A DNA stretch of 64,000 nucleotides from Lytechinus variegatus (Eukaryota > Echinodermata > Echinoidea > Temnopleuroida > Toxopneustidae), in contig NC_054748.1 of assembly GCF_018143015.1 (NCBI RefSeq), positions 17,363,356 to 17,427,355 of the forward strand, read 5' to 3'. Shown here in pieces: positions 32,901 to 38,900 of the stretch. The position numbers and the translations under genes are program-made. Below the pieces are notes generated by a model. It made no database searches. It was given only the letters and a program-made list of their open reading frames with translations, and was not told where the DNA came from. The number at the start of each line of letters is the position of its first letter. Positions within the stretch are counted from its first letter, which is position 1.

Positions 32901-35900
32901 GAAGCGCAGTGAAATTTCAAGAAAACAATGAATGCAGGAATACACCTCAAAGCTAGAAAATATTTTGAACATGTAAATAGATGTTGATGTTGCTGGCTAT
33001 CCATAGCTGCGATTAATTGGATCAATTGCAAACCTTTGTAAGACGGGGCCCTGGGTGCCAAAAATTTATTCTCAAAAGGTGCATGAGACTTGAAAGTAAA
33101 AATTCAGCAAGTGGAATGGTCTAGAAAATTGCAATCATGGGGGGGGGGGTAGGGAGGGGTGTTGATTTGACCCCCTGGCTTTTTAGGATTTACATATGAA
33201 AGAAAAACTTACAATTGATTTTCTCATCTTTATACTGCCTGTCCTCGATAGCCGTGACATGTAACGTAGCTCTGTCTGGGAAGATCAGGCCGTCATCTTT
33301 CTGAAATATGAAGGATCACAAAAACAATTTCACACAAATAGACCAATAAGAGATCGTAACATACATGTGAGAATTTTTTTAGTACTAACCTTAGTAAGAA
33401 CAGTAATTGTAACAGTAAGTGTAAGTCAACTTTGTTTTCGAAGCCGACTTTGACTTACAGACGTGCAGTTTACTGCCAAAACTCCCAATTTTCATTCAGT
33501 TACATCAACTGAACTTTGCGATATCTATGAGCTGAATAACGATCACACTGAAGAATGCCAACACAGATAAGCACATCCAGGGTAGTGATATATTTTATGG
33601 GAGAAAAGTCCTCATAATGACATGCTTATTGTGCTAATTTCTTAGCAATGACACAATTTCTTTCTGACTTATTTAGCACATGTTTTTTTCATTCACACAA
33701 ACAGATACTTGTGTGACATTTTTATTTGCCTCTGTATGAAATAATTTGAAATCGTTTCAACTGGCATTTATCTGTAAGAGCAATACCAATGCTGCATAAT
33801 ATTTCATGTATATACAAATAAGTTATTAGGCCTACATCAAGGCTCCACACTAACTTTTTCTCTTGGTGGCCCAAACAATCTACCAAAATCATAAATTTCA
33901 TATTTTTGGTGGCCCTAAAACAATAGAAAACATTACAATTTATCAAAACTTTGGTAGCCCAACCGGGCCACCAAGTGTTGGCTTTTACAAAATTTTGGTG
34001 GCCCGACTCTCATTTATGGTTGCCCCGGGCCACTGCTAATGTTGAGCCCTGCCTACATAAACAACTGCAAAAGTCAACAATGAACTTGAGATATGTACTT
34101 ACACTGAGCCATTTATCTCTTGCAAAGAGAACGGTGTTGAGCATGGATTCGTAGAAGAGACAGTAGCCCATCCACTCGCTGATGATGATATCAACCTTCT
34201 CTACCGGTAGAGTGACCTCTTCAACTTTACCCCTCACAATCTCAATCACTAAAAGAGAATCAAATAGATGCGATATTATCAACTAACTCCCAATAGAGTG
34301 ACCTCTTCAACTTTACCCCTCACAATCTCAATCACTAAAAGAGAATCAAATAGATGCGATATTATCAACTAACTCCCAATAGAGTGACCTCTTCAACTTT
34401 ACCCCTCACAATCTCAATCACTAAAAGAGAATCAAATAGATGCGATATTATCAACTAACTCCCAGTAGAGTGACCTCTTCAACTTTACCCCTCACAATCT
34501 CAATCACTAAAGAGAATGATAAACATGTGATATTATCAACCATCTACTGAAAGAGTTAACTCTTCAACTTTATCCGCAACAATCTCAATCAATACAGAGA
34601 ATGAAACATGGGATATTATCAACTAACTCCCAATAGAGCGACCTCTTCAACTTTACCCCACACGGTCTAAATAACTAAAAGACAATCATAAACATGTAAA
34701 TATTATCAACTATCTACTGGTAAAGGGATATCTTCAACTTTACCCCTCACAATCTAAATCACTAAAGAGAATAATAAACATGTGATATTATCAACTAACT
34801 CCCAGTAGAGCAACTTCTTCCACTTTACCCCACATGATCTTAACAACTAAAAGACAATCATAAACATGTGATATTATCAACTATGTACCGATAGAGTGAC
34901 CTCTTCAACTTTACCCCTCACAATCTCAATCACTAAAAGAGAATCAAATAGATGCGATATTATCAACTAACTCCCAATAGAGCGACCTCTTCAACTTTAC
35001 CCCACACGGTCTAAATAACTAAAAGACAATCATAAACATGTAAATATTATCAACTATCTACTGGTAAAGGGATATCTTCAACTTTACCCCTCACAATCTA
35101 AATCACTAAAGAGAATAATAAACATGAGATATTATCGACTATCTACCAGTAAAGTGACCTCTTCAACTTTACCCCTCACAATCTCAATCACTAAAAGAGA
35201 ATCAAATAGATGCGATATTATCAACTAACTCCCAATAGAGCGACCTCTTCAACTTTACCCCACACGGTCTAAATAACTAAAAGACAATCATAAACATGCA
35301 AATATTATCAACTATCTACTGGTAAAGGGATATCTTCAACTTTACCCCTCATAATGTAAATCACTAAAGAGAATAATAAACATGAGATATTATCGACTAT
35401 CTACCGGTAAAGTGACCTCTTCAACTTTACCCCTCACAATCTAAATTACTAAAGAGAATAATAAACATGAGATATTATTGACTATCTACCGGTAAAGTGA
35501 CCTCTTCAACTTTACCCCTCACAATCTAAATCACTAAAGAGAATAATAAACATGAGATATTATTGACTATCTACCGGTAAAGTGACCTCTTCAACTTTAC
35601 CCCTCACAATCTAAATCACTAAAGAGAATAATAAACATGAGATATTATTGACTATCTACCGGTAAAGTGACCTCTTCAACTTTACCCCTCACAATCTAAA
35701 TTACTAAAGAGAATAATAAACATGAGATATTATCGACTATCTACCGGTAAAGTGACCTCTTCAACTTTACCCCTCACAATCTCAATCACTTAAGAGAATG
35801 ATAAACATGTGATATTATCAACCATCTACTGAAAGAGTGAACTCTTCAACTTTATATGCAACAATCTCAATCACTAAAAGATAACAATACATGGGATATT

Positions 35901-38900
35901 ATCAATTAACTCCCAGTAGAACGACCTCTTCAACTTTGCCCAAACAATCTAAATAACTAAAAGACAATTAAAACATGTGATATCATCAACTATGTGACCT
36001 CTTCAACTTTACTCCTCACAATGTCAATCACTAAAAGAGAATAACAAATTAATCAACGTGATATTGTCAACTATTTACCGGTAGAGTGGTTTCTTCCAGT
36101 TTACTCCACATGATTTCACAAGAATCATATACATGTCACATTTTCAATTATCTGTACCAGTAGAGTGACCGCTTCAACTTTACCCTTCACAATCTCATTC
36201 ATTAAACAAAATTCATGAATCACTTAAGAGAATAATAAACCTGCAAAATTTATATTAAATATCTACAGGTAGAGTGACCTCTTGAACTTCGACCCTCAAG
36301 ATCTTGATCACTAAAGAGAATGATATCCATGTGATGGGCCTGTTTCAAAATTGGTAACCATCATGCTTATTTTTGAAAATTGTTTTTAAACGATGTTTTC
36401 TCATTTTTTATTGATGATTCATATCTCCTCTTTCATGAAGTATAAGTATCCATTCAATTTTTACAACTTTTCTTGAATTTTTCGCAAATTTTATAACGTG
36501 ATGCAAATTTGAAAGCATGTCGGACGGAATTCTTTCTCTGAAATTAAATGGTCCTAGGTAACACTTAATATCTTTGTTTTGAAACTGCATGTTTATAAAT
36601 ATTAACATATATATCAATCATCCTTTTTATACATTAACTGGAATCATATATGTAGACATGAATGATTCCTGCAATTTTAGAAAAGGTAACTCAAAATTTT
36701 CCGTCCGACATGCAAAAAATTTCCAAGAAGTTTTCCCTCAGAAAAACAATTGACAATTTTATAGATTTTTCCCAGCCAAGTATCAATGAATTGATTGTAG
36801 TCTTAGAATGAATGATGATTTTTAAAATTTACCTGCACCTAAGTAGGAAAAAATAAGGATAACTTTTTTTTCCATCCGACATGAAAGTGGCATGTCGGAC
36901 GGAATCTATTGAGATAGCACAGATTACACTTCTGTTCTGCAGCTTTCAGTGTACAATAACCTCATATATTACAGTTCAGATTCTGGACACACACAATACA
37001 CAAACTTACACACAATTAAACAGTACTTAGGTATGGTATTTTCCTGCAATCTGATTGGTCAGAAGTGATGTACACTTTCAATATGTAAAGCACATGGCTT
37101 TGGACATTCCTCTTGCTTTCACCTTTCCAGTACTTGTGTTTACTGGCCAAGGTAGTGTCCTGTTTTACTGTAGAAAACTAACATTATGTATTGCTTTAAG
37201 CATTTTCTAAATGAATAGTAAGAAGTTTAAAACTCAGAGATGCATGTGGGATACAAAATTTGCCCAAAATATAGCTGAAGAAAATGATAATCTACTTCAT
37301 AAGATGCTCATGTTTTTGGATTGGGGAAGGGAGGACTCTGTGCACTTTAGCAACTCAGTGCATGGGCTATAGCCTATGCACAAATCTATCAAGTGTCTTG
37401 TGGAAAGTTAAAATAATACTTGACTGCAATATTGTCTGCTTGTTTTACAATTCAATATGAGAGTGCACTGTTTTACATCTGAATTTGTGAATGATAATAA
37501 TAATAGGGTAAATAATAATGATAAAAATGATAAAAATAATTTTTCATAATACCTGAAATCAATTTTTGTTTCTCAATTTTTATGAAACTGTATCCCACAA
37601 TTTGTTATAACATCCTAAAAATAAACCGTGAAAATAGAAAAAAATTCTGGATGTGTGCAAAGAACTTAAAACTTATTTAATTTACCATCCTGATGAATTT
37701 ATTTCGCGAAAAAGCTATCGTGTTTTGGTTGTGATTTTCAGAGTCCTTGAAGTTGCAAGAATGTCGGAGCGTTCAAAAAATGCAATTAGATGCAAAAAGT
37801 GGCGTGACTCCCTTGATGCTCAAGATCGAAAAGAAAAAGACAGAAATCGAAAACGTCAAGAAAGACAAAAACTTAAACAAAACAAGGAAAAATATGAGTC
37901 TGCTCTTCTGAAAGACAAGTGTCGTAAGAGAATGAAAGCAAGAAATGCTTCCTTGTCTTCTATCTCAACTAGTCATCAGTCTGCAACTTCTGATCCCACT
38001 TCTAACTCGTCTGCTTCCACTGCCATCCATGCTCCTAATACAGCTAATACATCCTCTACATTCTCTGCTTCTACTCCTGAGCCAGCATGCACCACCAAAC
38101 CATCTACCCCACCATCTAAATCCAGTCCATTCAGTACGAAGCAGTCTCTCTACAGGTGTATGAAGAAAACACGCAGTAATCTACCCAAAGATTCCCATCA
38201 GCGTGCCTATTTGCTCTCTAATCTCATCTCCACAGATTTGTCACCAAATAAGAAGGACTTTGTTCTTGAGTCACTTCGTAGAAAATGTAGCCCATCGCAA
38301 AAAGGGCGCAAAAAAATTCTTTCTCCTGACAGAGAGGAATTTCTGCTTGGTTTTATGCAGACACCTGGGATATCATACACTATGCCAGGTCATCGAGACA
38401 CAGTGTATGTAGGCATGGTAGATGGGCAAAGGCAATATAAGCCTAAACACTACCTGCTCTGGCATGTGCGTGAACTAACAGGCATGCTGAATCAAACAAA
38501 AGACCCTAATGCTCTCCATGAGTCTTTTATTGACAAGTTTGGAAGTGAGATATCTTTCTCATCTGTATTCCGTTTCATCAAGTCCCAGAAACACATTCTT
38601 TATCAAGCAGAGATTCCCAGTGTCAGTTGTCTATGTTCCAAGTGCGAGAACTTTGAATTACTTGTGGAAGGTATCAGAACGGCTTGTTCTAACATTGATA
38701 TTCCTCACTCAACTGAGGACATTCTGAAGCTTTTCACATGTGACAAAGGTTCCCGCACTTGTGCATATGGTGAGTGTAATAATTGTCCTTCACCATGTCT
38801 TCAAAAGTTAGAGGAGGTAGAAGAAGTTCACTTCTACTCCTGGGAAACCCATGATGGGAAAAAATACCCAGAGAAATTACCCAAAACAGTCACAGGTGAA

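Follow-up and report, generated by a model that had tools for sequence, protein, structure and literature searches.

Tandem repeats that carry copies of an intron/exon boundary have been described in amphioxus, where they are known as mirages. The globin gene BflGb6 contains tandem repeats of an intron end together with the start of the following exon, 6 units in one haplotype and 3 in another, with a unit length of 150–160 bp; for Adh3, a case credited to Canestro et al. 2002, units of 10–72 bp are given (PMC3087553). Reverse transcription polymerase chain reaction (RT-PCR) is described as suggesting regular splicing of BflGb6 (PMC3087553). In the lancelet gene PGBD5, tandem repeats of 60 and 108 bp lie over splice sites, in the authors' view without interference with splicing, and the paper names Adh and TnC as further cases (PMC3902484). 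Here, we analyzed a 64,000-nucleotide stretch of the genome of the sea urchin Lytechinus variegatus, referred to as the window (C9:17363356-17427355; the genome comprises 869.6 Mb in 33 contigs), in which the PRMT1 gene carries 25 decoy copies of the acceptor region of its exon 5. Judged by its sequence, this array has the defining structure of a mirage and is longer than the described ones. We consider it most likely a minisatellite that was seeded by the front edge of exon 5 itself and is tolerated as nearly neutral sequence.

PRMT1 is encoded on the minus strand of the window, and exons 2–10 (26898–46197) were mapped manually on the basis of tblastn matches and splice signals; the first exon was not sought. 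Exon 5 (34103–34248, minus strand) was identified by exon mapping and by a phmmer search against PDB. It is 146 nt long and ends at the donor AGT/GTAAGT, and the top PDB match of its peptide is PRMT1 (8z2z_A, E 6.8e-24), with PRMT8 a close second (1.5e-23). Exon 4 is located at 43043–43106 (minus strand; tblastn and boundary mapping). Between these two exons, Tandem Repeats Finder and unit alignment revealed a contiguous array of 24 decoy units of about 86 bp (34249–36335, minus strand), each consisting of the end of intron 4 and the start of exon 5. The repeat was reported by Tandem Repeats Finder at 34200–36206 with a period of 85, 23.6 copies and a score of 2200, and individual units were delimited by cutting at a conserved core. 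A 25th unit (42894–42959, minus strand, acceptor at 42959; unit alignment, blastn E 3e-17) is positioned 83 nt downstream of exon 4 and is separated from the array by a transposon. The array units match the exon-5 boundary in a blastn search of the window at E values of 1.4e-8 to 2.3e-50, and thus the likeness is not due to chance. The acceptor AG is retained in 22 of the 25 decoys, 21 of them among the 24 contiguous ones. The original prediction, a tandem array of about 24 decoy acceptors copied from PRMT1 exon 5 and lying upstream of the true exon in transcription order, was borne out by this mapping.

As in the amphioxus cases, the repeat unit spans the intron/exon boundary, and the authentic boundary is kept at the end of the array, beside an intact exon 5. 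The units also show concerted evolution. Near-identical units had been expected beside the exon, and the last two steps between neighbours indeed have identities of 0.99 and 1.00; a further such run, however, occupies the middle of the array in the window copy (~35.3–35.8 kb), where four steps reach 0.95–1.00 (~35345–35770). These two runs of 95–100% identical neighbours contrast with the diverged units at the exon-4 end, where five steps show 55–72% identity. Around the real acceptor, the sequence equals that of the nearest decoy for 130 nt on the upstream side and 41 nt on the downstream side (171 nt). The exon-5 edge of the array is not left out of the homogenization, unlike the boundary units of the amphioxus example (PMC3087553). 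A three-unit higher-order repeat, for which Tandem Repeats Finder returned a 258-bp row, was considered and rejected; the mean identity at lag 3 in the window copy is 0.823, not above that at lags 2, 4 and 7 (0.821–0.822).

The unit had been proposed to comprise the intron end plus the first ~48 nt of exon 5. A boundary-spanning unit of ~86 bp was confirmed, but its exon-derived part may exceed 48 nt. In the first decoy, the tail resembles exon 5 past nucleotide 48 (shuffle p 0.0005); among two later tail types, one displays no likeness to this part of the exon (p 0.37 and 0.38, one tail run twice) and the other a weak one (p 0.01). These tails are similar to the 83 nt that precede the first decoy as well (p 0.03, 0.03, 0.03 and 0.09), which leaves the boundary within the unit unsettled. 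This stretch, which separates the first decoy acceptor from the exon-4 donor (42960–43042, minus strand; exon mapping), has the same length in both copies of the locus described below, and we therefore infer an ancestral intron 4 of ~83 nt.

The BflGb6 and Adh3 mirages share with the PRMT1 array the minisatellite-like duplications spanning a boundary, the concerted evolution and the retention of splice signals in most but not all copies. The length of the BflGb6 mirage differs between haplotypes, and the PRMT1 array comprises 25 and 19 decoys in two locus copies that are likely haplotypes. The differences are the phylum, the gene, the unit of 86 bp and the greater length (25 and 19 decoys versus 6 and 3). 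PGBD5 is described with a triplication of 3 x 108 bp, not a long array as in PRMT1. Outside amphioxus, no acceptor-spanning tandem array was found in the open-licence literature, which misses most subscription journals. To go by the title of Turri et al. 1995, the human 6-16/IFI6 minisatellite belongs to an interferon-induced transcript, to which it reportedly supplies multiple splice donor sites; the repeated sites are thus donors in that case and acceptors in PRMT1.

Other close PRMT1 matches in the genome were detected at one place only, C9:14.786–14.798 Mb, in inverted orientation and ~2.6 Mb away. All scored matches with at least 67% identity fall exon by exon on these two C9 loci, and other PRMT-like genes match PRMT1 at 36–61% identity. 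No PRMT1 retrocopies, which could serve as a record of past splicing, were seen among the scored genome matches. The collinearity between the two loci is inverted and extends over 17333280–17470540 versus 14848991–14726000, the limit of the sequence read. Within this span, 69% could be aligned; with the array counted in, the mismatch is 3.39% over 96,784 columns, and it falls to 1.9% in the 26 best-matching blocks; many insertion differences distinguish the two copies. A second copy was found also for 17.303–17.314 Mb and for 6 kb sampled at 17.00 Mb. In a search that skips common words, none was obtained for the non-repeat sequence of another 6-kb sample, taken at 16.30 Mb. The 18.0-Mb sample was repetitive, and a 5-kb query from the left flank matched dispersed repeats. 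In total, a C9 stretch spanning at least 0.47 Mb, sampled at 17.00 Mb and over 17.30–17.47 Mb, is doubled in inverted order at ~3% divergence (samples from 17.00–17.47 versus 14.73–15.15 Mb).

The PRMT1 frame of the second copy is open across exons 2–10, and exon 5 is complete and identical in both copies. Over 1059 nt, the two coding sequences differ at 8 synonymous positions and at no amino acid (one codon was left out for an N); the window copy has in addition lost 1 nt. This deletion lies in a run of G in exon 3 (44485–44639), which is 1 nt short relative to the other copy so that the frame is broken; it reflects either a sequencing error or a genuine null allele.

Sea urchins are highly heterozygous. 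The mismatch of 3.4%, the aligned fraction, the insertion differences and the 8:0 ratio of changes look like those of two haplotypes of a highly heterozygous animal, and no third close PRMT1 copy is present among the scored matches. The two PRMT1 loci are thus probably haplotypes of a single locus that were both retained in the assembly. Alternatively, a genuine inverted duplication of large size, in which the arrays diverged between paralogues, would account for the position of both loci on one contig, inverted and ~2.6 Mb apart, with none of the assembly's own N-runs in the 138 kb and 154 kb of sequence read at the two loci. It would also suit the presence of second copies at 17.00 Mb and over 17.30–17.47 Mb and their absence from the non-repeat parts of the 16.30-Mb sample. 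Set against the haplotype-like divergence, we regard such a duplication as unlikely.

The second copy contains 19 decoys, 18 of them with the AG. For 20 of the 24 window units a match of at least 95% exists among 17 second-copy units, the first two units of the second copy being left out of this comparison. The order of the units is partly different: window unit 34914–34828, for example, equals the fifth decoy of the second copy, near its far end. In addition, up to ~1.3 kb of inserted sequence (L009 6213–7583), which includes a 367-bp tandem repeat, breaks the second-copy array at a place unlike that of the window transposon. By this comparison, unit number and order change fast relative to bases. 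The near-identical neighbours and the 25 versus 19 decoys also agree with the recent expansion that had been predicted. Since the two locus versions differ in decoy number and partly in order, array length varies and an assembly artefact is improbable. Assembly errors are common in tandem arrays, and the 1-nt deletion in the window could itself be a sequencing error, which would speak for a few copies inflated by misassembly. However, the units are mostly separable by substitutions (39 of 46 acceptor-centred rows are distinct, both copies together), and the second copy, although it comes from the same assembly, shows the same unit types among its 19 decoys. We give misassembly hardly any credence as the source of the array.

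Intron 4 measures 8.8 kb in the window copy versus ~3.0 kb in the other copy. The 25th decoy and the contiguous array are separated by a DNA transposon of 6558 bp (36336–42893, no strand assigned) with 18-nt inverted ends and a 4-nt target duplication, TGAT; the second locus copy retains the empty site. The transposon holds one stop-to-stop frame of 877 aa on the plus strand (37638–40271), for which no Pfam match was obtained at E 0.01. One of its ends has ~50 partial matches elsewhere in the genome, among the 56 matches listed. In the history that we favour, a piece of ~86 bp, made up of the end of the ~83-nt intron 4 and the start of exon 5, would have been duplicated in tandem. Unequal exchange or slippage would have multiplied and reshuffled the units, transposons would have entered, and intron 4 would have lengthened.

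We then scored the acceptors and donors with approximate matrices. The real exon-5 acceptor scores 5.4 and the decoys 1.8–6.6, with 5 of the 22 AG-bearing window decoys, and 4 of 18 in the second copy, at or above the real site. We discarded a view of the array as 25 equal acceptors, since 5 of 22 window decoys reach the score of the real site and the other PRMT1 introns already hold 42 AGs of real-site strength in 9531 nt (4.4/kb, versus 16 in 2087 nt or 7.7/kb in the array). The densities in introns 5, 6 and 7 are 8.7, 6.1 and 8.3 per kb. At a cut-off of 4.5 the array has 15.8/kb versus 7.3 in the other introns, and at a cut-off of 7 it has 1.9 versus 2.4.

Read-through from a decoy AG meets an in-frame stop after 2–19 codons in the window (22 of 22) and after 2–42 codons in the second copy (18 of 18). 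A stop had been predicted for the distal units carrying TGATTTAG; these do have it, but so do all other decoys with an AG. Because the nearest decoy is identical to the real site over 171 nt, choosing the real acceptor requires information beyond the local sequence. Besides position, the choice probably rests on the exon body after nucleotide 41 and on the donor at 34103. The spliceosome would then mostly ignore the decoys, as a complete exon body and a proper donor follow the last acceptor alone (exon definition), and a wrong choice would lead to a premature stop and to nonsense-mediated decay (NMD). The 8 synonymous versus 0 amino-acid changes indicate that constraint on the protein persisted despite the array.

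In human intron retention, for example in OGT, a role is reportedly played by decoy exons, single cryptic exons whose function was tested. Such intronic, non-productive sites competing with real ones are the model for a functional decoy array, although they are single and not tandem. The acceptors and weak donors of the PRMT1 array would compete for the exon-4 donor, and retention or poison splicing would lower PRMT1 with copy number. The universal stops, the few decoys that score at least as high as the real acceptor and the different copy number of the two locus versions are all in keeping with this possibility, and the enrichment of donor-like sites (see below) is the main point for it. The decoy AGs, however, are not preferentially conserved: in a comparison within this one genome, AG columns change by 7.7% on average versus 16.0% for other columns, and 40% of the latter change no more than the AG columns do. 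This column comparison gives no signal of selection on the decoy acceptors, for or against. Acceptor-like sites are ~1.7x as dense as in other introns at real-site strength and no denser at cut-off 7, and the unchanged protein despite 19 and 25 decoys argues against a strong splicing effect. Analogous amphioxus arrays are reported to splice normally (PMC3087553). We therefore consider a functional decoy array quite improbable, and the effects on splicing fidelity, exon inclusion, NMD or PRMT1 level that had originally been suggested are so far unsupported. Still more speculative is an inherited rheostat, in which each unit brings an acceptor and a weak donor, a longer array diverts more exon-4 splicing to stop products and unit number sets the PRMT1 level. 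We count this as a long shot even jointly with its milder version, in which exon front edges repeatedly seed arrays in echinoderms as in amphioxus and thereby lengthen short introns; exon 7 of PRMT1, with its single decoy, would be a further instance.

Several points weigh against a nearly neutral array. Donor-like sites with a score of at least 5.3 number 36 in 2067 nt of array versus 23 in 9308 nt of other introns, which is ~7x denser, and at 5.6 there are 16 versus 19, the exon-6 donor scoring 5.7. With weak donors enriched in this way, pseudo-exons are conceivable. At 6.2, the score of the exon-5 donor, the counts are 2 in the array versus 12 in the other introns. Moreover, correct splicing past the array is an assumption, and a conserved protein would be compatible with partial mis-splicing. 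If the exon-3 deletion is real, the window allele may not depend on correct splicing.

A single decoy of a second PRMT1 acceptor region was detected next to exon 7 (32112–32227, minus strand; tblastn and exon mapping). It spans 56 nt (32614–32669, minus strand; blastn E 2e-12), comprising the intron end and 37 nt of exon 7, and is present in both locus copies, 423 nt upstream of the real acceptor. Its frame stops just past the copied part. The homologous AG scores 7.0 and the real site 7.8, and a different AG, located 5 nt ahead of the homologous one, scores 10.0. Elsewhere in the window, two facing minisatellites with reverse-complementary units (11726–11963 and 13542–13788) lie ~1.6 kb apart, like a mobile element with repeat-built ends. 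Two arrays of ~170–183-bp units in opposite orientation (17855–18636 and 20007–20807) are separated by 1.4 kb and are uncovered by any block of at least 250 bp of collinear match to the second locus copy. Among the other contigs of the assembly, the small contig C33 carries a COX1 frame of 517 aa under the echinoderm mitochondrial code (table 9, the only code tried), with 12 TGA inside if the standard code is applied; COX1 is followed by tRNA-Arg and then a COX2-like frame, and both this gene order and the proteins resemble those of sea urchins.

The PRMT1 array extends the mirage phenomenon from lancelets to an echinoderm and suggests a wider route of intron growth. Studies of splice-site choice usually rely on engineered duplicates, whereas this locus offers 25 natural acceptor copies and two array lengths in a conserved gene. 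It would be well suited to weighing the contributions of exon body and donor to acceptor choice through allele-specific RNA.

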